Of a DNA stretch of 64,000 nt, positions 8,871-33,280 are shown piece by piece; the stretch's first letter is position 1, and every line of letters begins with the position of its first letter. A program made the translations under genes and the position numbers. A model generated the notes under the pieces. That model saw nothing but the letters and a program-made list of their open reading frames with translations, was not told where the DNA came from and ran no database searches. The stretch comes from Pseudofrankia inefficax (GTDB taxonomy: Bacteria; Actinomycetota; Actinomycetes; Frankiales; Frankiaceae): positions 7,254,001-7,318,000 of the forward strand of contig NC_014666.1 of assembly GCF_000166135.1 (NCBI RefSeq), read 5' to 3'.

Positions 8871-8974
8871 GGCCAAGCGGCCCAGGATTGGCACGCCGCC
8901 CAGACGAACGCCAGCCAGACCCGACCCCCGACAGCTCGCTACCGAGACCATCGCCAACCAGACCAGACAACCCG

Positions 8975-9350: not shown

Positions 9351-9354
9351 AGGC

Positions 9355-10251: not shown

Positions 10252-10451
10252 GCGCAGCCTCCCTGAGGTCCGGCCCCGGGATCGTCACGGGGTCTCGGTC
10301 AGGCAGGTCCCGGGCGAGCGGCCGCGTCCACGCCCCGCGTCCCGCACGACCTGCGCGCTGACCACTCTGACGCTAGGACGCGGCGGTTACGACCGCATTA
10401 CCGACCAGCAGCGCCCTCGGGGGACGTAACTGGGATCACCGACGGCGCAGG

Positions 10452-10817
10452 TCAGTGCCGCCGGTTGCCACGACGAGACGAGTTCGACGACGAGTTGCCA
10501 TTGTTCGACGACGACTTGTTGGGCAGGCACTCCCACCGATCGTGCTTGTCGCTCCACTGCACCGAGTAGTTCGCGGCGCAGGTCAGGTTCGTCGGCTTCG
10601 GCGGATGATGCCGCCCGCAGCCGGCGAGACCACCGGCGACCAGCCCGGCGGCAAGCACCACGGCGACTCCCCGCGCCCGGCCGGGCTGGACCCGGCCCGG
10701 CGGCCTGGAAGGCCGGCCGCCTCGCGAAGCGGACAGCTCGGCGGCCAGGATGTCCTGGCGGGAGAGCGTGACAACGCGCTGGAAGCCCCGACGGTGCGAC
10801 TGGATCATGAACACCAT
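10452..10817 (-). CDS. Small putative lipoprotein
   Basis: 121 aa, no family recognised. A hydrophobic stretch GVAVVLAAGLVAGGLAGCG (about residues 50-68) ends in a lipobox LAGC, but it lies unusually far from the annotated start; a start nearer the hydrophobic stretch would give a more normal signal peptide. After the Cys come two Cys (LTCAAN and WECLPN) that could form a disulfide, then a Ser/Asn/Arg low-complexity tail. It is divergent from ureF across a gap of only 27 bp. Confidence 0.55.
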   Translation of the reverse strand: MVFMIQSHRRGFQRVVTLSRQDILAAELSASRGGRPSRPPGRVQPGRARGVAVVLAAGLVAGGLAGCGRHHPPKPTNLTCAANYSVQWSDKHDRWECLPNKSSSNNGNSSSNSSRRGNRRH

Positions 10818-10844
10818 CTACTACTACCTTGTGGAAGGTCTGCG

Positions 10845-11633
10845 ATGACGGACATGTCGGCCGAACGACCCGGCCCGGCGGGCCAGGCGCTGGCCGGCCC
10901 GGCGGGCCAGGCGCTGGCCGGCCTGGCGGGTCGGCCGGGTGCCAGGGCCGCGCTGTTGGTGCTGGCCGACGGACGGCTGCCCGCGGGCGGGCATGCGCAC
11001 TCGGGCGGGATGGAGGCCGCGATCGTCGACGGGGGCATCCGCGGGCTGGACGACCTCGCCGAGTTCCTCCGCGGCCGGTTGTCGACGGCGGGCCTGCTGT
11101 CCGCCGCGTTCGCCGCCGCCGCCTGCGAAGCCAGCCAGCACGGCCGCGAAGCCAGCCAGGACGGGGAGCTGCTCGCCGCACTCGACACCGAGCTCGACGC
11201 CCGGACGCCGTCCCCCGCGCAGCGGGACGCCAGCCGGGCACAGGGGCGGACGCTGCTGCGGGCCGGCCGCGCCGCCTGGGACCTGGCCGGCGCGGCGCTG
11301 CCGGCCGCGCCGCACCACCCGGTTGCCCTGGGCGTCGTCGCCGCCGCAGCGGGGCTCGGACCGGCGGACGCGGCGCTGGTCGCCTGCTACGGCGCGGTGT
11401 CGGGCCCGGCCTCGGCCGCGACCCGGCTGCTCGGGCTCGACCCGTTGGCGGTCACCGGCCTGCAGGCCCGGCTGGCCGTGGAGGTGGAGAGCGTCGCGGC
11501 CACCGCGACAGCCGCGGCCACTGCCGCCCTCGCCGCCGGCAGGCCGGACCTGCTGCCAGCCCCGTCGGCGGTCCGCCTCGACCTGCTCGCCGAGCGCCAC
11601 CGCGCCGCGCCGGTCCGGATGTTCACGTCCTGA
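10845..11633 (+). CDS. ureF: Urease accessory protein UreF
   Basis: Urease assembly factor, 262 aa, which acts with UreD and UreG to deliver nickel to the UreC active site. The ATG at 10845 starts MTDMSAERPG. The signature LADGRLPAGGHAHSGGMEAA matches the UreF opening (usual form SDSALPVGGFSHSSGLE). An Ala/Pro/Gln octapeptide is duplicated in the N-terminus. The 3' end overlaps the convergent response-regulator gene by 11 bp. Neighbouring ureD/ureG are about 4.5 kb away, an uncommon separation. Confidence 0.9.
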   Translation: MTDMSAERPGPAGQALAGPAGQALAGLAGRPGARAALLVLADGRLPAGGHAHSGGMEAAIVDGGIRGLDDLAEFLRGRLSTAGLLSAAFAAAACEASQHGREASQDGELLAALDTELDARTPSPAQRDASRAQGRTLLRAGRAAWDLAGAALPAAPHHPVALGVVAAAAGLGPADAALVACYGAVSGPASAATRLLGLDPLAVTGLQARLAVEVESVAATATAAATAALAAGRPDLLPAPSAVRLDLLAERHRAAPVRMFTS

Positions 11634-12303
11634 CGGCCGTCTCCAGCCGGTAGCCCATGCCGCGGACCGTCGCGATCCTGGCCGCGCCGAGCTTGCGGCG
11701 CAGGTAGCCGACGTAGACGTCGACGATGTTGCTGCCCGGGTCGTAGTCGTAGCCCCAGACCGCGGACAGCAGCTGCTCGCGGGCGAGCACCTGGCCGGGG
11801 TGGCGCAGGAACGTCTCGGCCAGCACGAACTCCCGGGCGGTCAGGTCGATCACTCGGTCGCCGACGCGCGCCTGGCGGGTACGCAGGTCCAGGGCGAGAT
11901 CACCGCTGCGCAGCACGGTCGGCTCCGGGGCGGCCCCTCGGTCGGGCCGCAGCCGCAGCCGGACACGGGCGAGCAGCTCCTCGAACCGGAAGGGCTTGCT
12001 GACGTAGTCGTCGGCCCCGCCCTCCAGCGCGGCGACCGTGTCACGCACCCCGTCGCGGGCGGTCAGCACCACGACGGGCAGCCGCGAGCCCGCGGCCCGC
12101 AGCTGGCGCAGCACGGCGAACCCGTCCAGGTCGGGCAGGCCGAGATCGAGCAGCAACAGGTCGACGTCGCCCGCCAGCGCGACCTCCAGCGCCGACTGGC
12201 CGTCGGCGACGCAGGTCGGGACGAAGCCGTTCGACCGCAGCCCCTTCGCCACGAACGACGCGATCCGCTGCTCGTCCTCGGCGATCAGGACCCGGTTCGT
12301 CAT
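11623..12303 (-). CDS. OmpR/PhoB-family response regulator
   Basis: 226 aa. The receiver domain shows the acidic pocket IAEDE (residues 7-11), phospho-acceptor Asp53 in LLLDLGLPD, the conserved Thr in VVLTARD and Lys in SKPF. A winged-helix DNA-binding domain follows (LTAREFVLAETFLRHPGQVLAREQLL, then YVGYLRRKL). Its start overlaps the stop of the sensor kinase gene by four bases, so the two form a two-component pair. Direct repeats with 11-bp period near 14.07 and 14.76 kb are candidate binding sites. Confidence 0.95.
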   Translation of the reverse strand: MTNRVLIAEDEQRIASFVAKGLRSNGFVPTCVADGQSALEVALAGDVDLLLLDLGLPDLDGFAVLRQLRAAGSRLPVVVLTARDGVRDTVAALEGGADDYVSKPFRFEELLARVRLRLRPDRGAAPEPTVLRSGDLALDLRTRQARVGDRVIDLTAREFVLAETFLRHPGQVLAREQLLSAVWGYDYDPGSNIVDVYVGYLRRKLGAARIATVRGMGYRLETAVRT

Positions 12304-14036
12304 GCCTGCCTCCCGCCGCCTCGACCGGCCCCTCGGCCCTCCAACCCGCTCGGGCGCCCGTCGTCACCCGACGCGAACTCCAGCGGCTCGACGCCGGCGG
12401 GCCACGATCCGCCGACGTGGGCTTCCTCGTCACGCGGCTCGTGGTCGCGGTCCACCTGGTCGGGCAGCAGGCTCAGCTCCAGGATGAACACGGCACCCTG
12501 CCCGGTCCCGCTCGGACCGCCGACCCGGACCGTTCCACCATGCGCCGTCGCGATGGCGCGCACGATCGCGAGGCCGAGTCCCGCTCCGCCGCCGACGGCC
12601 CCGCCCGGCACGGCCGTCGGCCGGGCGCGCGCGCCGCGGGCGAAGCGCTCGAAGATGCGGGCCCGGTCGGCCGGCGGCACGCCGGGGCCGGAGTCCGCGA
12701 CCCAGAAGCTGGCGACGCGGCCGTCGACCGCGGACCCGATGCCGATCGGGTCGCCCGGCCCGGTGTGCTGGGTGGCGTTCTGGGCCAGCTGCACCAGCGC
12801 CTGGGTGAGCCGCTGCCGGTCGACGAGCAGCCAGCCGGCGCCGACCGCCTCCAGCCGCCACGCGCGCGGCGCCAGCGCCCGCACCTTGATGAACAGGTCC
12901 TCGGTGAACGCGGCGAGGTCGACCGCCTCCCGGCGCAGGAAGTCGGGCTGCTCGGCCTTCGCCAGCATCAGCAGGTCGTCGACCAGGCGGCTCATCCGGT
13001 CGAGCTCGTCGAGGACGAGGGCCACGGTGTCGGCCCGGTCGTCCGGGTCGTCGCCGAGCAGCTCCAGATGCCCGCGGATGATGGTGATCGGGGTGCGCAG
13101 CTCGTGGCCGGCGTCGTCGACGAAGGCGCGCTGTGTCTCGAAAGCCTCCTCCAGCCGGTCCAACATGCCGTTGAACGTGCGCGCCAGCTCCGTGATCTCG
13201 TCCCGGCCGGCACCGTCACCCCGCGTTCCACGGCCGCCGCGCGTTCCACGGCCGCCGCGACCGGAGCGGCGGCCGCCGCGCGCGGGGCCGGCGCCGCCGA
13301 TCGGGATCCGGCGCGAGAGGTCGGTCTCGGTGATCGACTGGGCGGTCCGGCGCACCATCCGTACCGGGGCGAGGACCCGTCCGGCGACCATCCAGCCAGC
13401 GGCGCCCGCGACGGCCAGCGCACCGAACCCCACCACGCTCAGCACCCGGACGACCGCGCCGACCTCGGCCCGCTCCCGGTCGACGAAGACCGCGGACACG
13501 AAGATGCCCCGTTCGGGCCGGCCTTGCGTGCTCACCGGGACCGCGACGTAGCGGACCTCCCCGGCCGGCGTGCCCACCCGGCCGTAGCTAGGCCGACCCG
13601 ACGCGGCCGACGACACGAACGCCGCGATCGCCGCCGGGTCGGTGTCCAGCCGGTACGGCGGCGTCTCGGCGCTGCGGAAGATCGGCTTGCCGTCGACCAG
13701 CGCGAGCATGGTCTGGTTGCGGTCGGGGATCGCCCGTTCGAGGTGCGCCTCGAGCAGGGCCCGCACGTCGGTGAACTGAGAACGCCGCGTCGCCGGGTCG
13801 ACGTTCTTCTCCACGAACCTGCGCAGCTCGCTGACTTCCTTCGCCAGGCCCTGGTCGACCCGTTCGTCGGCCCGCGCGAGCAGCACCTCGCGGGCGGCCA
13901 GCACCGAGCCGGCCAGCGCGAGCGCGACGAGCAGGAGCTGCCAGCCAAGGATGCGCAGCCGCGCGGAGCCCGTCACGGCGCGAATCCTCATCAGCCCGCT
14001 CGCCGGCCCGTGGGACCTCGGCCGCCGACGCGCCAT
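12300..14036 (-). CDS. Membrane sensor histidine kinase
   Basis: About 578 aa from ATG 14036 (a TTG at 14063 and an ATG at 13991 are alternatives). Order: first membrane segment (LGWQLLLVALALAGSVLAA), extracytoplasmic sensor of about 150 residues, second membrane segment (VVGFGALAVAGAAGWMVAG), HAMP, dimerisation/phosphoacceptor domain with AGHELRTPIT, and ATPase domain with the N box in QNATQH and G boxes (DSGPGVPP, GGAGLGLAIV). A Gly/Arg-rich insert (GGRRSGRGGRGTRGG) sits between HAMP and the phosphoacceptor helix. A Pro/Asp/Glu tail of about 50 residues follows the catalytic domain. Confidence 0.93.
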   Translation of the reverse strand: MARRRPRSHGPASGLMRIRAVTGSARLRILGWQLLLVALALAGSVLAAREVLLARADERVDQGLAKEVSELRRFVEKNVDPATRRSQFTDVRALLEAHLERAIPDRNQTMLALVDGKPIFRSAETPPYRLDTDPAAIAAFVSSAASGRPSYGRVGTPAGEVRYVAVPVSTQGRPERGIFVSAVFVDRERAEVGAVVRVLSVVGFGALAVAGAAGWMVAGRVLAPVRMVRRTAQSITETDLSRRIPIGGAGPARGGRRSGRGGRGTRGGRGTRGDGAGRDEITELARTFNGMLDRLEEAFETQRAFVDDAGHELRTPITIIRGHLELLGDDPDDRADTVALVLDELDRMSRLVDDLLMLAKAEQPDFLRREAVDLAAFTEDLFIKVRALAPRAWRLEAVGAGWLLVDRQRLTQALVQLAQNATQHTGPGDPIGIGSAVDGRVASFWVADSGPGVPPADRARIFERFARGARARPTAVPGGAVGGGAGLGLAIVRAIATAHGGTVRVGGPSGTGQGAVFILELSLLPDQVDRDHEPRDEEAHVGGSWPAGVEPLEFASGDDGRPSGLEGRGAGRGGGRQA

Positions 14037-21250: not shown

Positions 21251-21295
21251 ATTTTGGGTGAGCCGGGGCGCTCCGCGCCCCGGCTCACCCAAAAT
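21251..21295. terminator. Perfect 20-bp hairpin at the end of hpnH
   Basis: ATTTTGGGTGAGCCGGGGCG (21251-21270) and its exact complement (21276-21295) around a five-base loop. It begins at the last base of the hpnH stop codon. The A/T-rich outer ends give an ATTTT tail on the minus strand, as expected for an intrinsic terminator. Confidence 0.85.
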
Positions 21296-22296
21296 CACAT
21301 GCGGACCGCGCGGAGCCCTTCCTTGAGGGAACCCATCGTGGCCAGCACGGCAGAGGTCTCGTAGCCGCAGTGCGCCATGCAGTTGGCGCAGCGCGGGTCC
21401 TTGCCGCGGCCGTACTTGTCCCAGTCGGTCGTCTCGGTGAGCTCCTTGTAGGAACCGACATAACCGTCGCTCATCAGATAGCACGGCTTCTGCCAGCCGA
21501 ACAGGGAGTAGCTGGGAATACCCCACGCGGTGCAGGCCAGCTCGCGCTTGCCCTCCAGGAAGTCCAGGAAGACCGGCGAGTGGTTCAGCCGCCACTTCTT
21601 GCGCCGGCCCTCGGAGAACACCTTGGAGAACATCTCCCGCGTCTCCTGCACCCCGAGGAAGTGCTCCTGGTCCGGCGCCTTCTCGTAGGCGTAGCCAGGC
21701 GAGAGCTGGATCGCGTCGACCTTGAGGTCGTCGTTCAGGAAGGTCAGGATGTCGATGACGTCCTGCGGGCTGTCGTTGTTGAAGAACGTCGAGTTGGTAC
21801 CGACCCGGAAGCCCGCGGCCTTCGCCGCCTTGAAGGCCTCGATGCACTCGTCGAAGGTGCCTTCCTTCTCCACGATCGCGTCGTGCCGATCACGGAGTCC
21901 GTCCACATGCAGCATGAACGTGAAGTAAGGGCTCGGAGTGAAGTTCTTCAGCTTCTTACGCAGCAGCAGGCCGTTCGAGCAGAGGATGACGAACTTCTTG
22001 CGCTTGGTGAGCTCATTCACGATCTCGTGGATCTGAGGGTGCATGAGCGGCTCACCGCCGGCGATCGCGACCACCGGTGCACCACACTCTTCGACCGCGG
22101 CCAGAGCGTCCTCAACGCTCATCCGCTGCTTGAGCACGTTTGCGGGATGCTGGATCTTCCCGCAGCCGGTGCACGACAGGTTGCAGGCGAAGAGCGGTTC
22201 CAGCTCAAGCACGAGCGGGAAGTACTTCTTTCGCTGGATCTTCTGCTTGACCAGGTAGGACCCGACACGCACCTGGTAGCGCCACTGAACCGCCAC
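21295..22296 (-). CDS. hpnH: Adenosyl-hopene transferase HpnH (radical SAM)
   Basis: 333 aa from GTG 22296 (protein begins MAVQWRYQVRVGSYLVKQK). Radical-SAM cluster motif CNLSCTGC with Cys38, Cys42 and Cys45; C-terminal SPASM-like cysteines in CANCMAHCGYE. HpnH attaches the adenosyl radical to diploptene, giving adenosylhopane, the first step to C35 hopanoids. It is the last gene of the locus but has its own promoter region of about 440 bp. The hairpin at 21251 follows the stop. HpnG, acting next, is fused to IspH at 23393-25108. Confidence 0.96.
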   Translation of the reverse strand: MAVQWRYQVRVGSYLVKQKIQRKKYFPLVLELEPLFACNLSCTGCGKIQHPANVLKQRMSVEDALAAVEECGAPVVAIAGGEPLMHPQIHEIVNELTKRKKFVILCSNGLLLRKKLKNFTPSPYFTFMLHVDGLRDRHDAIVEKEGTFDECIEAFKAAKAAGFRVGTNSTFFNNDSPQDVIDILTFLNDDLKVDAIQLSPGYAYEKAPDQEHFLGVQETREMFSKVFSEGRRKKWRLNHSPVFLDFLEGKRELACTAWGIPSYSLFGWQKPCYLMSDGYVGSYKELTETTDWDKYGRGKDPRCANCMAHCGYETSAVLATMGSLKEGLRAVRM

Positions 22297-22733
22297 GGCG
22301 GATGTCCCCCTCTCGTCAGGCCGCCCGGTGGTGACCTGGGGTCGTTGGGGATCACCATACAGCGAGTACGTACAGGCTGTATGTCGACCCCAGGGGCAAC
22401 ATACAAGCTGTATGTCGAACGCGCATGTCGATCTGGTAAATCCACGACGACGATCTCGCCACGGCCGCGGCTGGCTACCGTCCGCGCCCATTTCGTGGGT
22501 TTCGGGGCCGGGCCATCCGCACTAGGCGCGCACCACTTTCACAGACAGCGATGCAGACGCAGTCTGCGTCACGGCGAGTAAACCCGCCACCCGAGGAGAG
22601 GTCGCCATGCCGACACCCTCCGAGGCATCTACTTCCCACTAAATCCAGCCGGACACCTGTCAGCCGATCCCGGCTTGGCGATCTGGGTTCGATCCACGAA
22701 CCTAGCCAACTGGGGCCACTAGACTTGCTCGTC
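22297..22733. promoter_or_regulatory. hpnH / HxlR divergent control region with twin palindromes
   Basis: Two 17-bp sites, 22368-22384 and 22399-22415, share ACrTACArGCTGTATGT (15 of 17 identical; the second is ACATACA-AGC-TGTATGT, a perfect inverted repeat). Their centres are 31 bp apart, about three helical turns. Each is followed by CGA, and a third partial GCATGTCGA lies at about 22423. The arrangement looks like a cooperative operator upstream of hpnH. The rest of the 437-bp gap shows no gene. Confidence 0.6.
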
Positions 22734-23330
22734 ATGGAGGCACCCGCTACCCCACCGAGCCGCGCGGGCACCCCGCCACTCCTGACGGCCCCACGCCCCT
22801 GCTCGATCGCCCGCGCCCTCGAGATCGTCGGCGAGCGCTGGTCGCTCCTGGTGATCCGCGAGGTGACCCTGGGCGTCCGTCGCTTCGACGCCATCCAGGC
22901 CGCCACCGGCGCCCCCCGCGCCGTCCTCACCGACCGGCTGGCGAACCTGGTGCGGGCCGGGGTGCTCGACCGGGTGAGCTACCGGGAGGACGGCACCAGG
23001 GCCCGCCCCGAGTACCGGCTCACCCAGGCCGGCCGCGAACTCAGCCCGGTGCTGACCGCGCTGCGCCAGTGGGGCGACCGGCATCTGTCCGACGAGGCCG
23101 GCCCCCCGGCCACCTTCACGCACGTCGGCTGCGGAGCGCCCGTCCGCGTCCAGCACGTCTGCGCCGCCGGCCACCTGATCGACGACGCCCGCGAGGTCGT
23201 CAGGACGACCCGCGAGGCCCAGGCCGCCGAGACCCAGAACGCTGAGACCCAGAACGCTGAGACCCGGGACGCCGAGACTTCGGCTACCGAGACGCCCTCC
23301 GACCTGCGCCCGGCGAGCCCGGCCACCTGA
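22734..23330 (+). CDS. HxlR family winged-helix regulator
   Basis: 198 aa. The HxlR core is clear: CSIARALEIVGERWSLLVIRE, then GVRRFDAIQAATGAPRAVL and DRLANLVRAGVLDRVSYRED with the wing ARPEYRLTQAGREL. CGAPVRVQHVCAAGH could be a metal- or redox-responsive Cys site (three Cys). The tail repeats AETQN/AETRD and is disordered. Divergent from hpnH and convergent with hpnG-ispH, it is a candidate regulator of hopanoid side-chain genes, by position only. Confidence 0.9.
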   Translation: MEAPATPPSRAGTPPLLTAPRPCSIARALEIVGERWSLLVIREVTLGVRRFDAIQAATGAPRAVLTDRLANLVRAGVLDRVSYREDGTRARPEYRLTQAGRELSPVLTALRQWGDRHLSDEAGPPATFTHVGCGAPVRVQHVCAAGHLIDDAREVVRTTREAQAAETQNAETQNAETRDAETSATETPSDLRPASPAT

Positions 23331-23392: not shown

Positions 23393-25108
23393 TCAGCCGC
23401 CCTGCGGCCGGCGAACCTCCTTGGGCAGGGTGAAGGCGATCGACTCGGTGCCGATCGACCGCGTCGTCACCGTGGTGGCGCCGAGCCCGGCGAGCGCGTC
23501 GGCCAGCTCGTGCACCAGGCTCGGCGGCGCCGAGGCACCGGCCGAGATCCCGATCGTGTCCGCGCCGGCGAGCCAGTCCAGCCGCACCTCGTCGACGCTC
23601 TCGACCAGGTGTGACGCGACGCCGTCGCGGCGGGCGACCTCGGCGAGCCGGCGCGAGTTCGCGCTGTTCTCCGACCCGACCACCAGCACGAGGTCCGCCT
23701 CGCTCGCCACCCGGCGCACCGCGTTCTGCCGGTTGGACGTCGCGTAGCAGATGTCCGCCGAGCCGGGCCCGACGATCGCCGGGAACCGGGCCTTCAGCGC
23801 GTCCACGACCTCCTCGGCCTCGTCCACCGCGAGGGTCGTCTGCATCAGGTACGTGACCCGCTCGGGGTCCTCGACCTGTAGCGACGGCACGTCCTCGGCC
23901 GACTCGACCAGGGTGATCCGCCCCGGCGCCTCACCCAACGTGCCGTCGACCTCCTCGTGACCGGCGTGGCCGATGAGCAGCACCGTGTCACCGCGGGCGG
24001 TGAACCGGCGCGCCTCGGCGTGCACCTTCTCCACCAGCGGGCAGGTCGCGTCGATCACGTCGAGGTTGCGGCCCGCGGCCTCGACGTGCACCGCGGGGGC
24101 GACCCCGTGCGCGGAGAAGACGACGGTCGCGCCCGGCGGAACCTCGTCGAGCTCGTCGACGAAGACCGCGCCACGGCTGGCCAGATCGTTGACCACGTGG
24201 GTGTTGTGCACGATCTGCTTGCGGACGTAGACCGGTGCGCCGTGCAGCTCCAGCGCCCGCTCGACCACCTCGATCGCCCGCTCGACGCCGGCGCAGAACG
24301 CGCGCGGCTCGGCCAGCAGCACCCTGCGCTGCCCGACCGCGGCGGCCCACGCACCCAGCGGCCCGCCGAGCCGGCGCAGCGTGCGCAGGCCGGAGACGCC
24401 GCGGCGGGCCAGGTCGATCCGGCCGAGCGGCTCGGCCGCCGTGTCGACGATCACCCGGACGACGGCGAACGGCTTGCCGGCCGCGCTCGGCGACAGGTAG
24501 GCCGACTCCATGTCCACGGCGATCGCGCCGGTCGCGGCGAGCTCAGCGCGCGCGGTGCCGACGGCGAGCCGCGGCACCGAGACGACCGGCCCGATGTGCA
24601 CGGTCAGCCCGGCGCGCCGCAGTTCGCCGGCGAGCAGCGGCGCCGACGGGCAGCGGCCGGTGACCGTGCCGTCGCCGGTGCGGACCTCGCTCGCGACGAT
24701 GACGTCACCCGGGCGGACGCCGGGCGCGAGCCCGCCGCCGAGCCCGACCACCGCGACCGCGTCCGGCTTCGCCGCGCGCACCGCCTGGTTGGCCCGGCTG
24801 GCGCGTTCCGGGCCCATGCCGGTGCGCACGACGACGGCGTCCGCCGGCAGCCCGGACCGGCCGGCGGCGAGTGCCTCCAGCCGCAGCGCCGCGGCCACGG
24901 CCAGTCTGGACCGGCGCGGCGGGCGCCCCGGCTTCCAGCTGGGGCCGGTGCCGACCGCCTGTTTGGGGATCCGTGGCACGGCCCGTGCCGGCGCCTCGGC
25001 GGCCGCGCTCTCGGGTGGGGACGACGCGGACGCCTCCCCCGCCGTCGGCGGGCCGCCAGTATGACGCCGATCGCCGGTGTTCTCGGATGCAGAGATGCTG
25101 CTGCTCAT
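23393..25108 (-). CDS. hpnG-ispH: Fused hopanoid nucleosidase/phosphorylase (HpnG) and IspH
   Basis: 571 aa, start ATG 25108 overlapping the shc stop (ATGA). After a disordered N-terminus of about 65 residues, residues 66-250 form a nucleoside-phosphorylase-superfamily domain: VVVRTGMGPERA, AVVGLGGGLAPGVRPGDVIVA and the MTAN-like VDMESAY (198-204). HpnG removes adenine from adenosylhopane. Residues 262-565 are a complete IspH (HMBPP reductase, last step of the MEP pathway) with iron-sulfur Cys272 (RAFCAGVERAI), Cys356 (IDATCPLVEKVH) and Cys454, plus HNTHVVNDL and FSAHGVAP. No stop or frameshift separates them. One polypeptide thus joins isoprenoid supply to hopanoid side-chain processing. Confidence 0.92.
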   Translation of the reverse strand: MSSSISASENTGDRRHTGGPPTAGEASASSPPESAAAEAPARAVPRIPKQAVGTGPSWKPGRPPRRSRLAVAAALRLEALAAGRSGLPADAVVVRTGMGPERASRANQAVRAAKPDAVAVVGLGGGLAPGVRPGDVIVASEVRTGDGTVTGRCPSAPLLAGELRRAGLTVHIGPVVSVPRLAVGTARAELAATGAIAVDMESAYLSPSAAGKPFAVVRVIVDTAAEPLGRIDLARRGVSGLRTLRRLGGPLGAWAAAVGQRRVLLAEPRAFCAGVERAIEVVERALELHGAPVYVRKQIVHNTHVVNDLASRGAVFVDELDEVPPGATVVFSAHGVAPAVHVEAAGRNLDVIDATCPLVEKVHAEARRFTARGDTVLLIGHAGHEEVDGTLGEAPGRITLVESAEDVPSLQVEDPERVTYLMQTTLAVDEAEEVVDALKARFPAIVGPGSADICYATSNRQNAVRRVASEADLVLVVGSENSANSRRLAEVARRDGVASHLVESVDEVRLDWLAGADTIGISAGASAPPSLVHELADALAGLGATTVTTRSIGTESIAFTLPKEVRRPQGG

Positions 25109-27399
25109 GCCGCGGACCGCCCGGTGAGGGTCACGTACCGGCCGAGAGCCGTCAACGGGAAGACCAGCCGGTACAGGTGGTAGTTGATGGAGAAGTCCCA
25201 GGGGAAGCCGGTGCCGGTGTAGTAGGGCTCGTCCCAGGTGCCATTGGGCAGCTGGGTGTCGCACAGCCAGCGCACGCCGCGGCCGACCGCCTCGTTCATC
25301 GGGTCGGCGGCGAGCAGCGCGAGCAGCGCCCAGGCGGTCTGCGACGCGGTCGGTTCGCCGCGGCCCACCCAGGCGTCGTCCTGGTAGGACCGCAGGTCCT
25401 CGCCCCATCCGCCGTCGGGGTGCTGGTGGGCGACCAGCCAGCGCACCGCTGAGCGGATCGCCGGATGGTCGGCGGCCACGCCGGCCGAGATCAGCGCGGG
25501 TACGACCGCGCCGGTCCCGTACACGTGGTTGACCCCCCAGCGGCCGAACCACGAGCCGCCGGGCTCCTGGTCGTCCAGCAGCCAGCGCACCGCGCGCTGG
25601 GTGACCGGGTGGTCGGCCCGGCCCAGGTCGGCGAGCATCTCGACCATGTGCGCGGTGACGTCCGCGCTGGGCGGGTCGATCACCTCGCCGAAGTCGCAGA
25701 ACGGGATCTTCGTCGCCAGCTCACGGACGTTGTCCGCGTCGAAGGCGCCCCAGGCGCCGTTCGCCGAGCGCATCCCGACCGACCAGTTGACCGCCCGCTC
25801 GACGGACGCTCTGGCCTGTTTCGCGAATGTCGGATCGACGTCGTCCCAGCCGGACCCCAGCAGCCGGCGGACCGCGAGGACCACCTCGGCCGTGTCGTCG
25901 ACGTCCGGGTAGATGTCGTTGGCGAACTCGAACGCCCAGCCTCCGGGCTCCAGGTTCGGCCGGCGGACCCGCCAGTCGCCCGGAACGGTGACCTCCTCGC
26001 GGACCAGCCATTCGCCGGCCTTGCGCATCGCCGGGTGGCGGGCGTCGAGCCCCGCGTCGGCGAGCGCCACGACGGCGAGCGCGGTGTCCCAGACCGGTGA
26101 CTGGCAGGCCTCCAGCCGGCGGACCGTGACGACCTCGTCGCCCTCACGGACCTGCTCCCGGACGGTGAAGGTCTCCAGGCCGTCGAGGGCGGCGACCAGC
26201 ACCGGATGGTCCATCGAGTAGCCCATCAGGTGCAGAGCCATGATCGAGTAGACCCAGGGTGGCTGAATTCCGCCCCAGCCGCCGTCGGCCTCCTGGCGGG
26301 CCAGGACCCACTCGGTCGCTCGGCGCAGGGCCAGCTCCCGCAGCGTCTTCACCGGGTGACGCTGGTAGCGGCGCAGCCCGGCGTCGAGCCGCTGGAACAC
26401 ACCCGTCCAGCTGACCAGGGGTGCCCGGTCGGGACGCACCGCCGCGACCCGCAGCTCGTCGATCGAGAAACCGAGCGATCGGACCGGCCGGAAGTGACCG
26501 ACGATCGTCAGCGCCACCACCGTCTGACGGGCCCAGCACCCGAAGTCGTAGACGTTCAGCGGCACCCAGCTCGGCAGCAGGACCAGCTCGGGCGGCAGCA
26601 CCGGGACCTCGTCCCACGGCCACTCACCGAACAGCGCCATCCAGATCCGCGTGAAGACCCGCGTCGCGGCGAGGCCGCCGTGCGCCCGCACGAACGACGC
26701 GGCGGCCAGCATGTGCGGCGCGTCCGGCAGGTCGCCGGCCAGTCGCAGGCCGACGTACGCCTCGAACGTGGTCGACAGGTCGGACGGGCCGCCATGGAAG
26801 GTCGGCCAGCCGCCGTCGTCCTGCTGCTTCGACCGGATCCAGCGGCCGGTCTCGGCGGCCAGCTCCGGCGGCAGGATGCCGAGGAACTGGCGGAGCATGA
26901 GATCCTCGGCGTCCATCGTGACGTTGGTCTCGAGCTCCCCCTTCCACCAGCCGGCCTCGGACTGCAGGCCCAGGAGATGGTCGCGCGCACGGCCCAGCAC
27001 CGCGGCCGCCCGGTCGGCGACCTGGTCGGCCTGGGGCCCGGCCAGCTCGGTGGAGCCGAGCTGGCCGGTCTGCTGGGTGCGCGTCCCAGCGCCGCCGGCC
27101 GCGCGGACCGTGGCTGACGCCGCGCCGGCCAGCGGGCCGGTCGGGTCGGCCAGGTCAGTCGCGAGGTCAGGCAGCAGCGCCGGCCCGCTCGTGGCCGTCG
27201 AGGTCACAGCCCCGCTCGTGGCCGTCGGGGTCACGGCGCCGCTCTTGGCGACCGGGGCCACGGGCCGGGTGGTCACCAGCACGGGCCCGGCAACGGCGGA
27301 CCCTCCGGATCGGCTTCGCCGATCCGAAAGGGACCCCGGCCGCGCGGACGTCGGCTGCGTCGCCGGCGTCGCCGGGGACGGGTCCGAGGTCAGGCTCAT
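25105..27399 (-). CDS. shc: Squalene-hopene cyclase
   Basis: 764 aa, of which the first 120 or so are a low-complexity Thr/Ala/Pro extension absent from typical enzymes of about 630-650 aa. The catalytic acid motif DVDD is at 499-502. Multiple QW-type repeats are visible (for example ADGGWGGIQPPWVYS, GSWFGRWGVNHVYGT, PDGGWGEDLRSY, NGTWDEPYYTGTGFPWDF). A membrane-associated enzyme, it cyclises squalene to hopene/hopanol. It is followed by hpnG-ispH with a 4-bp overlap and preceded by the polyprenyl synthase gene at 80 bp. GGAGGAGATT precedes the start. Confidence 0.97.
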   Translation of the reverse strand: MSLTSDPSPATPATQPTSARPGSLSDRRSRSGGSAVAGPVLVTTRPVAPVAKSGAVTPTATSGAVTSTATSGPALLPDLATDLADPTGPLAGAASATVRAAGGAGTRTQQTGQLGSTELAGPQADQVADRAAAVLGRARDHLLGLQSEAGWWKGELETNVTMDAEDLMLRQFLGILPPELAAETGRWIRSKQQDDGGWPTFHGGPSDLSTTFEAYVGLRLAGDLPDAPHMLAAASFVRAHGGLAATRVFTRIWMALFGEWPWDEVPVLPPELVLLPSWVPLNVYDFGCWARQTVVALTIVGHFRPVRSLGFSIDELRVAAVRPDRAPLVSWTGVFQRLDAGLRRYQRHPVKTLRELALRRATEWVLARQEADGGWGGIQPPWVYSIMALHLMGYSMDHPVLVAALDGLETFTVREQVREGDEVVTVRRLEACQSPVWDTALAVVALADAGLDARHPAMRKAGEWLVREEVTVPGDWRVRRPNLEPGGWAFEFANDIYPDVDDTAEVVLAVRRLLGSGWDDVDPTFAKQARASVERAVNWSVGMRSANGAWGAFDADNVRELATKIPFCDFGEVIDPPSADVTAHMVEMLADLGRADHPVTQRAVRWLLDDQEPGGSWFGRWGVNHVYGTGAVVPALISAGVAADHPAIRSAVRWLVAHQHPDGGWGEDLRSYQDDAWVGRGEPTASQTAWALLALLAADPMNEAVGRGVRWLCDTQLPNGTWDEPYYTGTGFPWDFSINYHLYRLVFPLTALGRYVTLTGRSAA

Positions 27400-27479: not shown

Positions 27480-28496
27480 TCAGCAGTCGCGTTCGGTCAC
27501 GAAACGGGCCAGGGCAAGCAGCTCCGCCTCGGCCAGCGGTGGCAGGGACAGCGAGCGCAGCACCGCGCCGGCGGTCTTGAGCTGGCGGTCCGCCTCAGCC
27601 GTGGTCCAGTCACGGCCGCCGGCCCGCTCGACCAGCGCCGCGATCCGCTCCAGGTCCTCGGTCGGCCGGTCGCCCTCGCTCACGAGGAAGGCCCGCAGCT
27701 CCTCCGCGTCCGGGCCGCCGGCCTCCAGCGCGACGACGACCGGCACCGACTTCTTGCGGGACTGCAGGTCGGACAGCACCGGCTTGCCGGTGACGGCCGG
27801 GTCGCCCCAGATACCGAGCAGGTCGTCGATCAGCTGGAAGGCCGTGCCGAGGCGTGACCCGAACTCGGCGAGACCGTCGACGACCTCCTTGGGCGCGCCC
27901 GCGAGCACCGCGCCCAGGGAGGCGGCACAGGCCAGCAGGGCGCCGGTCTTGCCGTCCTCCATGTGCAGCGTCTCGGCGACCGTGACGTCCGAGCGGCTCT
28001 CGAACAGCAGGTCCTCGGCCTGGCCGCGGACCAGGTCCTGCACGCCGGCGCCCAGGATCACCGCCGCCTTGCGGCCGGGCTCGCCCTCGACCTCCAGCAG
28101 GACCTGCGTCGCCAGGCCGAGCAGCGCGTCGCCGGCGAGAATCGCGCCGTCCGCGCCGAAGACCGTCCACGCGGTCGGCCGGTGCCGACGCTCGGTGTCG
28201 CCGTCCATCAGGTCGTCGTGCAGCAGCGAGAAGTCGTGCACCAGCTCGACCGCCACGGCCGCGGGCAGGCCGACCTCGGCCGGTGCGCCCGCCGCCTCGG
28301 CGGACAGCAGCGCGAGCGCCGGGCGCACGAGCTTGCCGCCGCCTCCGGGCTGCGGGTTGCCGTCCGCGTCGACCCAGCCGCGGTGGTACTCGACGACGTG
28401 CCGAAGACGCGGGTGCAGCCGCGCGACCGTCTGGCGCAACGCGGGAACGGTTAGCGTCCGACCACGCTCGATGGCCTCCGGAACCGTCATGGTCAT
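27480..28496 (-). CDS. Polyprenyl diphosphate synthase (probable farnesyl diphosphate synthase of the hopanoid locus)
   Basis: 338 aa trans-prenyltransferase. First Asp-rich motif LLHDDLMDGD with the RRHRPTAW Arg stretch just after; second region FQLIDDLLGIWGD, where the usual DDxxD reads DDLLG. Located between hpnE and shc, overlapping hpnE by 4 bp, it most likely makes the C15 farnesyl diphosphate condensed by HpnC/HpnD. Chain length cannot be fixed from sequence alone. Confidence 0.92.
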   Translation of the reverse strand: MTMTVPEAIERGRTLTVPALRQTVARLHPRLRHVVEYHRGWVDADGNPQPGGGGKLVRPALALLSAEAAGAPAEVGLPAAVAVELVHDFSLLHDDLMDGDTERRHRPTAWTVFGADGAILAGDALLGLATQVLLEVEGEPGRKAAVILGAGVQDLVRGQAEDLLFESRSDVTVAETLHMEDGKTGALLACAASLGAVLAGAPKEVVDGLAEFGSRLGTAFQLIDDLLGIWGDPAVTGKPVLSDLQSRKKSVPVVVALEAGGPDAEELRAFLVSEGDRPTEDLERIAALVERAGGRDWTTAEADRQLKTAGAVLRSLSLPPLAEAELLALARFVTERDC

Positions 28497-30121
28497 GCCG
28501 GGTTACTCCCAACGCTGTTCGTGGTCGGCGTGGATGCCGAGCTGGTACCCGTCGAGGCACCAGGATCGGTCGCGGTCTCGCTCCCGGGCGCGGTGGCGGC
28601 CTTGACGGCCAAAGTGGGCTGCGCCGGGACTGGTGGGCTGGTGGGCTGAACGTCTGATCTGGTCGGCGTGGTCCCCAGACGCGGCCAGGTGACATCGCCC
28701 GAAACCGTCCCCGGCTCGCGTGCGTTCACCCCCACGCTGGCCAGCGTCTCACGGGCAGCAGCGAGCCCGCTACGCACAGCTCCCTCCATGGTCGCCGGCC
28801 AGCCGGTGTCGGTCCACGCGCCGGCCAGGGCGAACCCGGGCAGAGCGGTGGCCGCTCCCGGGCGAAGAGCGAGCGATCCGGGCGCCTGGCGAAACGTTGC
28901 CGTGCGCTCTCTCGTCACGAAGACCTCGACGAGCTTCGCGTCCCGCGCCGCGGGCAGGATGCGACGCATCTCGGCGACGAACTCGTCACCGAGCTCGCCG
29001 GCCGGCCGGTCGATCCACGGCTCGGCGGCGGACTGGGAGAGCGCCACGTACTGCGAACCTGGCGGCGCCATGCCGGTACCGGACAGTCCGGACGCCCCGG
29101 TCCGGTCGAAGATCCACTGGATCGGCGAACCGGTGACGGCCAGGAACGGCCCGTCGATCACCTTGCGGTCGAAGATCATGTGAATGTTCACGATCGGCGA
29201 GGTGCCCAGCTCCGTCAGGCCGGCCGGGTCCGGATGGGCCCCGGGCGGCAGCAGCTCGGCGGCGGCCGGCGGTGGCACGGCGAGCACCACGGCGTCGGCG
29301 GTCAGCACCGCCGAGTCGGACCGGCCGGCGCCGCTCGCGATCGCCACCTCGTAGCCGGCGTCCGTCCGGGTGATCGAGCGGACCTTCACGTTGGTACGCA
29401 CGTCGGCGCCGGCGTCGGCGAGCGCCTTGGCCGCGGCCTCGCCATGCAGCTGCTGCAACGGCACGTCGGCCCAGCCGATGTCGGCCGCGTCCGCCCGCTC
29501 CAGCAGCCCCGTGCGCACCACCTTCGCCGCGAGGCCCAGCGAGGCCTCCCCCGCCGGCACGTTCAGCGTGGCGACGGTGAGCAGCTCCCAGAGCGTCTCG
29601 GTGGCCGTCGGGCCCTGCCGATGCGCCGTCAGCCAGTCGCCGAACGACCGGCCGTCGACGGCCGGTGACCGCTGGTCGAGCCGGCCGAGCTGGAACGCGG
29701 CCAGCGCCGCGGTGACCCGCTGGGCGGGCGCCAGCGCCTTGTAGCCGAGCAGCGCGGGGGCCAGGTGCAGCGGCGCGGGCAGCCTGGCCTTCGTCCGGCG
29801 CAGCCGGGCGTGCGTGCCGAGCCGGTCCCCGAGCAGCACCGGGACGTCCAGCCGCTCCTGCAGCGTGGTCTGGTGCTCGACGCCGAGCCGGTTCAGGAAG
29901 CCCCGGTAGGCCGTGCAGCAGCGCATGAACACGTGCTGCCCTGTGTCGACCCACAGGCCCTTGCGGTCGAACGACGCGGTCGCGCCGCCCAGGCGGGGCC
30001 GGGCCTCCAGCAGCACCACGTCGACGCCGCTGTCCGCGGCCACCAGCGCGGCGGTCAGGCCGGCCAGGCCGCCGCCGACGACGACGAGCCGCGGCCGTGT
30101 CACGCGCGTCTGCGCCGTCAC
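28493..30121 (-). CDS. hpnE: Hydroxysqualene dehydroxylase HpnE (FAD-dependent amine-oxidase fold)
   Basis: 542 aa from GTG 30121, which overlaps the hpnD stop (GTGA). The N-terminal Rossmann motif VVVGGGLAGLTAALVAADSGVDVVLLE and the RLGGATASF stretch show the FAD site; the C-terminal FALAGAWTDTGWPATMEGAVRSG completes it. HpnE reduces hydroxysqualene to squalene, the third step of the HpnCDE route. The last 70 residues are a Thr/Ser/Pro tail with no homology in style. Its stop overlaps the polyprenyl synthase start (ATGA). Confidence 0.95.
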   Translation of the reverse strand: MTAQTRVTRPRLVVVGGGLAGLTAALVAADSGVDVVLLEARPRLGGATASFDRKGLWVDTGQHVFMRCCTAYRGFLNRLGVEHQTTLQERLDVPVLLGDRLGTHARLRRTKARLPAPLHLAPALLGYKALAPAQRVTAALAAFQLGRLDQRSPAVDGRSFGDWLTAHRQGPTATETLWELLTVATLNVPAGEASLGLAAKVVRTGLLERADAADIGWADVPLQQLHGEAAAKALADAGADVRTNVKVRSITRTDAGYEVAIASGAGRSDSAVLTADAVVLAVPPPAAAELLPPGAHPDPAGLTELGTSPIVNIHMIFDRKVIDGPFLAVTGSPIQWIFDRTGASGLSGTGMAPPGSQYVALSQSAAEPWIDRPAGELGDEFVAEMRRILPAARDAKLVEVFVTRERTATFRQAPGSLALRPGAATALPGFALAGAWTDTGWPATMEGAVRSGLAAARETLASVGVNAREPGTVSGDVTWPRLGTTPTRSDVQPTSPPVPAQPTLAVKAATAPGSETATDPGASTGTSSASTPTTNSVGSNPA

Positions 30122-31047
30122 GAGGCCGCACCTCCCGCACCAGGGGCCGCCGGGCGGGCACGCTCGGGCCGGCCGGCAAGGCTGCGGGCGGCGACCAGCG
30201 CCTTCTCCCTGGCGGGCAGGGACACCCGCTGGGTGAGCACGGCCGCCGGCTCGGCCTGAATCCGGCGGTTGAGCCGCAGGTAGATCCCGGCGAGGGCACC
30301 GCAGCAGGCGGCGCTGCGCCGGTCGAGCAGGTCCAGCAGCACCAGGCCGCGGGAGTACCACTCCTCGGCGCGCGCGGTGCCCATCCGCAGGTAGTCGACG
30401 AGCGCGTCCCGCGGGCCGCCGAGCACGCCGTCCGCGTCGACGGCCAGCTTCACCCCGGCCGCGGCGAGCTCCGCCTGCGGTAGGTAGGTGCGCCCGCCCA
30501 GCAGGTCCTCCCGCACGTCGCGCAGGATGTTCGTCTGCTGCAGCGCGACGCCGAGGGCGTCGGCGATCGCGGGGGCGTCGCGGCGGCTGGCGGCCTCCGT
30601 CGTGCCGAAGATGCCGAGCGAGAGCCGGCCGATCGTGCCGGCGACCAGCCGGCAGTAGCCGACCATGTCGTCGAACGTGTCGTAGGTGCTCGGGACGATG
30701 TCGCTCTCGACGCCGTCCGCGAGCTCGATGAACGCCTCCAGCGGGATCGGGAAGCGCTTCGCGGCGTCGGCGAGCGCGACGAGCACCGGGTCGGAGCTGT
30801 TCGGGTCGAGGCCGCGGATGTCGGCGCGGGCCTTGGCCAGCCCCTCGACCTTCTGGTCGTCCGGGAGGTCCCCGTCGCCGATGTCATCGAGGCGGCGGGA
30901 GAACGCGTAGACGGCCGACAGCGCGGCGCGCCGGTCCGCCGGCAGCAGCCTGATCCCGTAGGAGAAGTTCTTCGCCGCCTGCTTGGTGATCTCCTCGCAG
31001 GCCGCGTACGCCTCGGTCACCGTGGGTCGGGACGCGGCGGCGGTCAT
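30118..31047 (-). CDS. hpnD: Presqualene diphosphate synthase HpnD
   Basis: 309 aa squalene/phytoene-synthase fold. Aspartate motif 1 is AFSRRLDDIGDGD; motif 2 is QQTNILRDVREDLLGGRTYLP, with NFSYGIRLLP near the N-terminus. It condenses two farnesyl diphosphates to presqualene diphosphate. It overlaps hpnC upstream and hpnE downstream by four bases each, so HpnC, D and E are translationally linked. Confidence 0.95.
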   Translation of the reverse strand: MTAAASRPTVTEAYAACEEITKQAAKNFSYGIRLLPADRRAALSAVYAFSRRLDDIGDGDLPDDQKVEGLAKARADIRGLDPNSSDPVLVALADAAKRFPIPLEAFIELADGVESDIVPSTYDTFDDMVGYCRLVAGTIGRLSLGIFGTTEAASRRDAPAIADALGVALQQTNILRDVREDLLGGRTYLPQAELAAAGVKLAVDADGVLGGPRDALVDYLRMGTARAEEWYSRGLVLLDLLDRRSAACCGALAGIYLRLNRRIQAEPAAVLTQRVSLPAREKALVAARSLAGRPERARPAAPGAGGAAS

Positions 31048-32273
31048 GAGGCCTCCCCCTCGTCACCTCGCCGGCTGTGCCGGCTGTCAGCCTCAGTCAT
31101 CGCAGGCCAGGCGCTGGCCGGCCCGTTCACGGACCTGCTCTCGGTGTTCCCCAGGTCGGCGCCGGTCACTACGCCCGAAAGGGTGGTCACTGCCACGGTC
31201 GGGGCTGGCACCGAGGTGGCGGCCCGGTCCTTCGCCGTCGCGAGCGCCGGTTCCGTCACGGCCGCAGCGGAAACCGCGGAGGCGGCCGTGGCCCGGGGCG
31301 GGTTCGGGGACGGCGGCGGCGGCTCGCACAACGGTGGCAGGCCGCCGGCCCCGGCGGCGCCGGCACGCATCGACGGCGAGTACGAACGGACCGCGACCCA
31401 CATGGCGGCGCCGGCCAGCCGGGGCTTGCTCGCCTTCGGCGCGCCGCCGAGCACGTCGTAGCCGGCCTGGCGGACCGCGTGCAGCGCCGCGCGGCCACCG
31501 CCGATGAAGCCGGCGATGGCCAGCCGCATCCGGCCGTCCAGCAGGCTGGCCAGCGGGGCGCCCTGGTCGAGGACCGTGGTCGCCCTGGCGACCTGGAAGG
31601 CCATCAGGTTGCGCAGCGCCGGCGACGCGGTCGGCGCCGCGAGGTCGCTCTCGGCGACGCCGAAGGTGTCGAGGTCCTCGAGCGGCAGGTAGATCCGCCC
31701 GGCCGCGTAGTCCTCGGCGACGTCCTGCAGGTGCTCGGCGATCTGCAGCGCGGTGCAGACCCGGTCGGAGAGGATCAGCCGGTCGGGGGTCGCCCGGCCG
31801 AGCACGCCGAGCACCATGCGCCCGATCGGGTCGGCCGACAGGGTGCAGTAGCGCAGCAGGTCGTCGAAGGTCGGGTAGCGGGTGACCCGCTGGTCCAGCC
31901 GGTTCGCCTCGATCAGCCGCAGGAAGGGCTCGGCGGGCAGGTCGCAGGCCGCCACCGTCGTCGCCAGCCGCTGGTGCACGGGCAAGCTCGGCCCCGCGCC
32001 GGTCCAGATCCGCTCCAGGTCGGCCGCGAGCTCGTCAAGCAGGGCGAGCCGGTCGCCGGGGGCCTCGTCGCCGATGTCGTCGACCAGCCGGGCGAACCCG
32101 TAGATGGCCTTGAAGTGCTCACGGATGGCGGCGGGCAGCACCACGGGCGACACGGGGAAGTTCTCGCCGTACGCGGCGCGCAGCACCTCATCGGTGGAGG
32201 TCGCGATATCGGTGATACCGGCCGGCTCTGCCCGCCGGCCGGGGGCGGCGGTCCGGGCGTCGATGGGGGTCAT
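31044..32273 (-). CDS. hpnC: Hydroxysqualene synthase HpnC, with long C-terminal extension
   Basis: 409 aa from ATG 32273 (AGGAG 11 nt upstream). Core residues 25-290: ENFPVSPVVLP, FARLVDDIGDE, CTLSADPIGRMVLGVLG and QIAEHLQDVAEDYAAGRIYLP. HpnC converts presqualene diphosphate to hydroxysqualene. The last ~120 residues, after about position 290, are Ala/Pro/Thr/Ser-rich and lie beyond the normal end of the fold. Start of the tightly overlapping operon; an SDR gene lies 176 bp upstream on the same strand. Confidence 0.94.
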   Translation of the reverse strand: MTPIDARTAAPGRRAEPAGITDIATSTDEVLRAAYGENFPVSPVVLPAAIREHFKAIYGFARLVDDIGDEAPGDRLALLDELAADLERIWTGAGPSLPVHQRLATTVAACDLPAEPFLRLIEANRLDQRVTRYPTFDDLLRYCTLSADPIGRMVLGVLGRATPDRLILSDRVCTALQIAEHLQDVAEDYAAGRIYLPLEDLDTFGVAESDLAAPTASPALRNLMAFQVARATTVLDQGAPLASLLDGRMRLAIAGFIGGGRAALHAVRQAGYDVLGGAPKASKPRLAGAAMWVAVRSYSPSMRAGAAGAGGLPPLCEPPPPSPNPPRATAASAVSAAAVTEPALATAKDRAATSVPAPTVAVTTLSGVVTGADLGNTESRSVNGPASAWPAMTEADSRHSRRGDEGEAS

Positions 32274-32449
32274 GCGCCTCTCGTTCTCCTGAAGTCTCGG
32301 GGACCCGCGGCCGCGGCCAGGTTCCTGGTCGGGGGGTTGGCACGGGTCCGCCCGCTGCTGAGGGGTCGAGGGGAAGCCGGGCCGGTGGGCGCGCGCCGGG
32401 TCAGGGCGGCGTGAGGTCGCCGGCGGCGGGCCGGCGACCGGCGCGCTCG

Positions 32450-33280
32450 CTATCCGAACACATTCGCCAACCTGCGGTAGAGCGGCGGCGCCGCTCCGTG
32501 CACGCGCGCGGCCAGGGACATCCAGCCTGGCACCCACACCTCGGCGCTGCCGCGCGCGACGCCGGCAAGCATGCGGTCCGCGACCCGGCTCGGGGGCATC
32601 GCCTTGGGCCAACGGCGGACGTACGGGGCGCCGCGGCGGTGGAAGAACGGTGTGTCCACGGCGCCTGGTAAGCAGAGCGTCACCACGATGCCGCGACCTC
32701 GCACCTCGGAGCGCAGCGCGTCGGCGAATCCGACCAGCGCCGCCTTGCTGGCGGAGTAGGCCACCTCGCCCCGCACCCCCAGCGCGCCCGCGACACTGCC
32801 CACCAGCAGGATGCGGCCCTCGCCGCGGTCGAGCATCGCCGGCAGGACCGCGCGGACCAACATCATCGGTGCGAGCACGTTGACGGTGACCAGATCCCGC
32901 AGCGCGTTCGGGGACATCACCTCGAAGGGTCCTGCCGCGCCGATTCCGGCCGACAGGACCAGCAGGTCGACGTCACCGAGCAGTTCGGTGGCCCGGGAGG
33001 CGACGGCGGTCTCCGCGCCCACGGCTGTCAGGTCGGTCGCGAACCGGTGGCCGCCAGTCGCGGCGGCAACCTCGTCGAGGGCGACTCCGTTGCGGCCGAC
33101 CAAGAGAGTCTTGGTGCCGTCCTGGGCCAGCCGGAGTGCGGCCGCGCGGCCGATCCCGCTGGAGGCACCGGTGACGAGTGCCGTCCGCGGTGGCCAGGGA
33201 GCGGACGCGGCCGCCCGGGCCCTGCTGATCACCGGCCGGGAAGCCCGATCCTGGACAGCAGGACGAGAGCGGGTGCTCAC
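32450..33280 (-). CDS. SDR family NAD(P)-dependent oxidoreductase
   Basis: 276 aa. After a basic N-terminal tail of about 30 residues comes the cofactor motif TALVTGASSGIGRAAA, then NNAG-equivalent VLSAGIGAAG, the catalytic Ser in LLVGSVAGALG and YSASK. The C-terminal GWMSLAARVHGAAPPLYRRL could associate with a membrane. Substrate unknown. Upstream of hpnC on the same strand, it may be co-transcribed with the hopanoid genes. Confidence 0.92.
   Translation of the reverse strand: MSTRSRPAVQDRASRPVISRARAAASAPWPPRTALVTGASSGIGRAAALRLAQDGTKTLLVGRNGVALDEVAAATGGHRFATDLTAVGAETAVASRATELLGDVDLLVLSAGIGAAGPFEVMSPNALRDLVTVNVLAPMMLVRAVLPAMLDRGEGRILLVGSVAGALGVRGEVAYSASKAALVGFADALRSEVRGRGIVVTLCLPGAVDTPFFHRRGAPYVRRWPKAMPPSRVADRMLAGVARGSAEVWVPGWMSLAARVHGAAPPLYRRLANVFG

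Follow-up and report, generated by a model that had tools for sequence, protein, structure and literature searches.

What would be gained by joining HpnG, an enzyme of hopanoid side-chain processing, to IspH, the last enzyme of the methylerythritol phosphate (MEP) pathway, in one polypeptide? This question is raised by a gene at 23393-25108 of a 64,000-nucleotide stretch of the Pseudofrankia inefficax genome (assembly GCF_000166135.1, contig NC_014666.1, positions 7,254,001 to 7,318,000; hereafter the window), a genome that consists of a single contig of 8,815,781 bases. The gene adjoins shc in a hopanoid operon, and we refer to it as the hpnG-ispH fusion. Comparison of its sequence with those of its relatives makes it likely that the chain holds two independent predicted catalysts, an HpnG for adenosylhopane and an IspH that serves as an extra, operon-controlled supply of isopentenyl diphosphate (IPP) and dimethylallyl diphosphate (DMAPP).

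An earlier note on this DNA had placed the gene at the correct coordinates without stating the strand. The gene lies on the minus strand: read from 25108 to 23393, the frame starts with ATG, has no internal stop and encodes 571 residues with a computed mass of 58.7 kDa, whereas a plus-strand reading of the same interval was ruled out by stops in frame. The note had also proposed that a nucleosidase-type domain and a complete IspH with all three cluster cysteines share this frame, and both parts of that proposal were confirmed by domain matches and by alignment to E. coli IspH. Pfam PNP_UDP_1 matched residues 91-226 (54.8 bits, cut-off 25.1) and LYTB (PF02401) matched residues 263-539 (306.2 bits, cut-off 24.5), while NCBIfam ispH_lytB (TIGR00216) covered model positions 2-279 of 282 at 300.8 bits, above the cut-off of 187.85 for membership of the IspH family. 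The parts of the gene are as follows.

23393-25108, minus strand: hpnG-ispH fusion gene, 571 residues plus stop
24929-25108, minus strand: weakly constrained N-terminal extension of 60 residues, rich in Ala and Pro, outside the Pfam and NCBIfam domain matches
24335-24928, minus strand: HpnG half, residues 61-258, with a nucleoside phosphorylase/MTAN-like fold (MTAN, methylthioadenosine/S-adenosylhomocysteine nucleosidase) and conserved E78, D199, E201, R218, D222 and W254
23396-24334, minus strand: IspH half, residues 259-571
24293-24295, minus strand: codon of cluster Cys272, aligned with E. coli C12
24041-24043, minus strand: codon of cluster Cys356, aligned with E. coli C96
23747-23749, minus strand: codon of cluster Cys454, aligned with E. 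coli C197

Both halves are under purifying selection, with ratios of nonsynonymous to synonymous substitution (dN/dS) of 0.02-0.18 in four comparisons. In three of these the N-terminal extension gave 0.38-0.51 against 0.13-0.18 for both domains, and in the fourth, a very close pair, 0.09 against 0.02. An AlphaFold model of both halves, from residue 60, had a mean predicted local distance difference test (pLDDT) score of 91.3 and a predicted template modelling (pTM) score of 0.87; in it, the HpnG helix 189-198 passes directly into the IspH strand at 202 with almost no linker. When the model was searched with Foldseek, E. coli structures of IspH with its substrate (E)-4-hydroxy-3-methylbut-2-enyl diphosphate (HMBPP) ranked first for the IspH half, with a root-mean-square deviation of 1.5 Å and 50% identity, and nucleosidases of methylthioadenosine (MTA) and S-adenosylhomocysteine (SAH) appeared lower in the list for the HpnG half. 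We also noticed that PDB entry 9ql0, by its title, is E. coli IspH crystallised in the presence of adenosine hemisulfate, which is possibly relevant in view of the adenosyl substrate of the fused partner.

We then asked how widely the fusion occurs, as the earlier note had suggested doing across actinobacteria. A relatives search covered 97 genomes, our own included, 35 of the same family and 62 outside it. A match spanning both halves was found in 31 of the 35 and in 5 of the 62; the exceptions within the family were one locus interrupted by runs of N (G024) and three genomes without a spanning match (G010, G013 and G018). In the fused loci that were fetched (L003-L032, L040-L044 and L057), a single frame without stops holds both HpnG and IspH. 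Stops had been reported inside four spanning matches (G086, G045, G078 and G011), but the fetched frames were open, and we take these stops to lie upstream of the HpnG domain. Two weak matches of spanning length (G069 and G063; 43-44% identity, with stops) were not counted as fusions, the HpnG match being absent there. A second scan took the best 80 of 288 relatives among named genomes, many of the Frankiaceae being the same as in the first search, and here the fusion was in frame in 76 of 80 HpnG loci; this share overstates that among all HpnG because the query was built from fused HpnG domains. The IspH half was full length in 72 of the 76, which include one locus (L079) that was counted despite a run of N within its IspH half and three with a partial IspH (L110, L131 and L132). 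The four unfused loci belong to Planotetraspora and three Acidimicrobiia. Full-length fusions occur in nine named families, Frankiaceae, Pseudonocardiaceae, Streptosporangiaceae, Thermomonosporaceae, Nocardiopsidaceae, Micromonosporaceae, Micrococcaceae, Actinopolymorphaceae and Mycobacteriaceae, the last represented by a metagenome-assembled genome (MAG), and further ones lie in unplaced records; two of the 76 are from Thermoleophilia MAGs. Because the same open frame is conserved across species, the fusion is not a matter of chance or of an assembly slip, and a sequencing error at the domain junction is thereby excluded.

The identity of the N-terminal half was judged by model and by neighbourhood. 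HpnG was the best model for the domain in the window and likewise for each of the seven further domains tested from the HpnG position, and the neighbourhood agrees: shc and hpnH are both in the window, and among the 76 fused named loci shc was found in 72, hpnH in 73, and one or the other in all. No other HpnG candidate was found in the same genome, where two further matches of the PNP family come out as purine nucleoside phosphorylase and futalosine hydrolase. In 36 aligned fusions, E201 and D222 were present in 36 and E78 in 35, with one gap. These residues fit, by motif and not by residue-level structural superposition, the catalytic acids of MTAN, which we take to be Glu12, Glu174 and Asp197; Glu12 and Asp197 are named in the PDB titles of the MTAN-fold structure matches.

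For the IspH half, residues were counted in 77 distinct full-length sequences from 85 fused loci, after 4 short and 4 duplicate sequences had been removed. Fifteen of the 18 positions inspected were invariant in all 77, among them (E. coli numbering) C12, H41, H74, C96, H124, E126, T167, T168, C197, S225, N227 and S269. Of these, E126 is presumably the catalytic Glu and C12, C96 and C197 the cluster ligands, and we take the remaining ones to be HMBPP contacts. The genome also contains another ispH, which the earlier note had proposed to look for, at 875 kb (locus L059). This housekeeping copy has the same invariant residues and 58% identity to the fused IspH, but it is unfused, belongs to a separate clade (100/100 support, branch length 0.59) and has no hopanoid-gene match within the surrounding 12 kb. 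Each of the 36 fused genomes in the relatives search, ours included, has a housekeeping ispH in addition to the fusion, which rules out the fusion as a replacement for it. The genome has one ispG and one full-scoring dxs.

The surrounding genes show that the fusion belongs to a hopanoid operon, with hpnC, hpnD, hpnE, the polyprenyl synthase gene and shc upstream and hpnH downstream on the same strand. The overlap of 4 bp with shc that the earlier note had described was found as an ATGA.

25105-25108, minus strand: ATGA overlap of the shc stop and the fusion start
25105-27399, minus strand: shc, squalene-hopene cyclase (TIGR01507, 706.8 bits)
27480-28496, minus strand: polyprenyl diphosphate synthase (PF00348, 182.6 bits)
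28493-30361, minus strand: hpnE, as an open reading frame whose actual start is probably more internal (TIGR03467, 405.7 bits, residues 93-539)
30118-31047, minus strand: hpnD (TIGR03465, 282.6 bits)
31044-32612, minus strand: hpnC, as an open reading frame whose actual start is probably more internal (TIGR03464, 305.7 bits, residues 147-404)
22551-23330, plus strand: HxlR-type regulator gene between the fusion and hpnH (PF01638, 70.1 bits)
21295-22491, minus strand: hpnH, radical SAM (S-adenosylmethionine) adenosyl-hopene transferase (TIGR03470, 512.5 bits)

In 51 of 52 fused loci outside the Frankiaceae, the hpnH start overlaps the IspH match or is less than 100 bp from its end; within the family the two are close or overlapping in 3 of 21, and 507-5467 bp apart in the others. 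The polyprenyl synthase had as its top NCBIfam model 'family 2 encapsulin nanocompartment cargo protein polyprenyl transferase', at 422.6 bits and below the cut-off of 450. A second HpnH above the cut-off is encoded at 1998455-1999405 (plus strand) of the genome, distant from the operon, with a score of 512.7 bits that is about that of the window copy.

How might the two activities work together? One study describes HpnH as making adenosylhopane, which HpnG then converts to ribosylhopane (PMC12583986). The HpnG half would thus remove adenine from adenosylhopane made by HpnH, giving ribosylhopane, and the IspH half would convert HMBPP to IPP and DMAPP, an additional source of C5 units under operon control that may feed the neighbouring polyprenyl synthase, HpnC, HpnD, HpnE and Shc. 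The fusion would ensure 1:1 co-expression of the halves under shc control, with translational coupling through the ATGA overlap, and no substrate would pass between them. The earlier note had described the last MEP step as joined to side-chain processing. This holds for the polypeptide; in the pathway the two reactions are far apart, and channelling is therefore unlikely. A link to isoprenoid supply is supported by dxs, which 8 of the 76 fused named loci and a further fused locus (L044) contain, and by related ispH genes that lie beside dxs, ispG and a terpene synthase gene (see below).

Published data on Frankia bear on when such a supply might be used. FRAAL1433, which is annotated as HMBPP reductase and whose number follows that of Shc1 (FRAAL1432), appears in a proteomic table of F. 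alni; in propionate- relative to fumarate-fed nitrogen-fixing cells it was 5.12-fold and Shc1 4.23-fold higher, and Shc2 was likewise more abundant (PMC10252897). Judged by its number and name only, FRAAL1433 should be the hpnG-ispH fusion. The squalene cluster FRAAL1427-1435 of F. alni was overproduced in nodules (PMC8951365), and hpnC and sqhC mRNA rose in strain CcI3 under hyperoxic conditions (PMC4058466). The hopanoid operon was unmutated in five thin-envelope mutants of F. casuarinae (PMC12501873), which is neutral for the supply reading. An operon-borne ispH may raise supply during envelope thickening.

Nature has taken the fusion apart in both directions. In Phytohabitans flavus and P. 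suffuscus (L131 and L132) and in a Micromonosporaceae MAG (L110), HpnG is in frame with slightly over the last third of IspH, and all three cluster cysteines are lost. The last residues of the Planotetraspora HpnG, '...HFALPKEVGS', resemble the end of an IspH that was lost. Conversely, a locus of the same class (L045) has an intact IspH preceded by an extra piece, over which Pfam is blank and which we read as a decayed HpnG. In the IspH tree this ispH and an unfused one (L149) fall on the side of the fused copies. Their neighbours are dxs, ispG and a prenyl synthase gene, with a terpene synthase gene instead of shc; no shc or hpnH match was found in the stretches examined. These cassettes presumably resemble the M. 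tuberculosis lytB1 neighbourhood.

L131, 8001-8774; L132, 8001-8759; L110, 5187-5951: HpnG with a C-terminal IspH remnant
L045, 7919-14534: cassette with prenyl synthase, ispH, dxs, ispG and terpene synthase genes
L149, about 6896-13117: like cassette with ispH unfused

Stand-alone HpnG is found in Streptomyces-like loci (L051-L053) at the same place between shc and hpnH with no IspH attached; that of L051 has the same best model (TIGR03468), and L051 and L052 have ispG and dxs after hpnH. By gene content, then, either half is used without the other, HpnG among hopanoid genes and IspH also among MEP and terpene genes. Because each half occurs without a working partner, the strict stoichiometric tie of isoprenoid supply to hopanoid synthesis that the earlier note had envisaged is not required, and it is unproven. 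The IspH half would rather be an optional booster, which several lineages dropped while keeping HpnG.

The trees, which like the codon controls rest on an earlier set of rows without those added for the 77-sequence counts, bear on the origin of the fusion. In a tree of 88 IspH rows, 22 housekeeping copies formed one clade (100/100), and all fused rows, L045, L149 and E. coli fell outside it. Five fused rows, MAGs among them, branched closest to the housekeeping clade. E. coli is a long branch on the fused side, leaving the root open, so that an order with the housekeeping copy first is not established. The topology allows one fusion event, short of proof. In a quick, midpoint-rooted HpnG tree, where one unfused row (L056) bore the label of a fused one, the unfused rows were scattered among fused ones, suggesting repeated loss of the IspH half.

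Several observations weigh against the assignment of two working catalysts. TIGR03468 (HpnG) gave 81.3 bits with the whole protein and 85.4 with the domain alone, below the cut-off of 187.1 for membership, and for this reason we call the first half HpnG-like, going by its position and its best model; the scores of seven other actinobacterial proteins at the HpnG position, fused and unfused, were only 61-96 bits. In the IspH half, the substrate-site Ser at position 226 is Ala in 20 of the 77 fused copies, that of the window included, position 165 is Met in 62, Thr in 14 and Val in 1 as against Ser in all 23 housekeeping copies, and position 223 also varies. A paralogue with all critical residues may not be interchangeable, as M. 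tuberculosis LytB1 was unable to replace LytB2 (PMC4550268). The IspH half has disappeared or been reduced to a remnant in Phytohabitans, in another member of the Micromonosporaceae and in Planotetraspora, and is therefore not needed for keeping the hopanoid operon. Finally, an even draw across the phylum, with a threshold of 1e-118 that divergent fusions could escape, found the fusion in only 3 of 198 genomes, our own included, and in 3 of the 19 that have HpnH above the cut-off. Seven of the 16 HpnH-bearing genomes without fusion belong to one genus, probably Streptomyces-like.

Alternatively, the IspH half could have ceased to contribute to IPP and DMAPP flux and act on HpnG instead, tuning or steadying it as an Fe-S switch sensitive to oxygen or iron or as a structural part. 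The nearly linker-less junction and the confident joint model would suit such a role, as would the in-frame, cysteine-free C-terminal part of IspH retained in L131, L132 and L110, and sensing of Fe or O2 was proposed for IspH-RPS1 by Rao et al. (PMC4746011). A switch would not need all the HMBPP-binding and catalytic residues that were inspected, yet they are kept in 77 of 77 copies except at S226; nor does this role agree with related ispH genes in dxs-ispG cassettes or with unfused HpnG between shc and hpnH in other lineages. We consider it unlikely.

It might also be supposed that the N-terminal half is a general nucleosidase of MTA or 5'-deoxyadenosine that clears radical-SAM by-products, given its score below the TIGR03468 cut-off, weak matches to MTA/SAH nucleosidase models and the MTAN fold. 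This is very unlikely when HpnG is the best model throughout the domains tested, the gene sits between shc and hpnH in fused and unfused operons alike, and the genome offers no other HpnG.

A further proposal, with little probability in our estimate, is that the IspH half, solely or additionally, reduces ribosylhopane to bacteriohopanetetrol (BHT), making the fusion a two-step side-chain enzyme. Frankia is reportedly rich in BHT, to go by the title of a 1991 report by Berry and colleagues. The presence of an Fe-S reductase in one chain with the producer of ribosylhopane is suggestive, and the enzyme for the conversion of ribosylhopane to BHT is not established according to PMC12583986. Against this proposal, relatives of the fused IspH are encoded in terpene cassettes, where the stretches examined gave no match to shc or hpnH, and there are hopanoid operons without an IspH half. 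Furthermore, IspH chemistry is allylic dehydroxylation and not aldehyde reduction, and the residues that we take to hold the diphosphate of HMBPP are conserved, whereas ribosylhopane has no diphosphate.

Lastly, the fusion could be an accident of frame from which two separate proteins are made, by an internal start or by proteolysis. An in-frame GTG, TTG or ATG was found 4-20 codons before the first cluster cysteine in 55 of the 77 distinct fused loci (76 such codons), often a GTG near the start of a stand-alone IspH. None of the 77 loci had a Shine-Dalgarno-like motif, from a list of five 5-mers, before these codons. With the same list, the motif was detected in 19 of 33 loci with a located hpnH start and upstream of 97 of 1465 start-like codons within IspH, a background rate from which about five would be expected at the junctions by chance. 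The frame was open across the junction in all 77, each with a Trp within the last 30 codons ahead of the first cysteine. Separate translation of the halves, which the earlier note had named as a possible refutation, is thus disfavoured on these motif counts, and production of two proteins is highly improbable.

Fusions of IspH have been described before. Rao et al. (2015) listed a 'UDP-IspH', a PNP-family domain with IspH, in Frankia sp. QA3, EUN1f and EAN1pec, and remarked that such single fusions could be random; the main text, in the part available, makes no mention of hopanoids (PMC4746011). It is very probably the same protein as the hpnG-ispH fusion, the QA3 locus (L069) being among our fused loci. 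Compared with the published listing, the partner here is HpnG-like, the place is a hopanoid operon and the range is nine named families. IspH-RPS1 and IspH-UbiA, described in the same paper, also have IspH fused in one protein, and IspH-UbiA was likewise interpreted as local precursor supply; they differ in having other partners on the other side of IspH and in coming from anaerobes. The UbiA domain is at the C-terminus of IspH, whereas here IspH itself is C-terminal. An acidobacterial cluster described as 'hpnH, shc and ispH' was dropped as a precedent, as the list in the same paper gives ispA, shc and hpnH, and we take ispH to be a slip (PMC5462960). In the open literature, with subscription papers mostly and supplements wholly outside our reach, we found nothing in print on the hopanoid identity of the fusion, its range or the name HpnG-IspH. 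The listing in three strains is thus already in print, and the hopanoid reading and the range of the fusion are new.

Taken together, these data give a pathway to an IspH fusion that was previously held to be possibly random: it would provide a dedicated precursor supply inside hopanoid operons in many actinobacteria. Such a supply would account for the two ispH genes per genome. As the fusion can be annotated as a plain HMBPP reductase, surveys of hopanoid genes may miss hpnG, and the natural half-deletions are ready controls on its purpose. Its bearers include nitrogen-fixing Frankia, which build their vesicle envelope from hopanoids.
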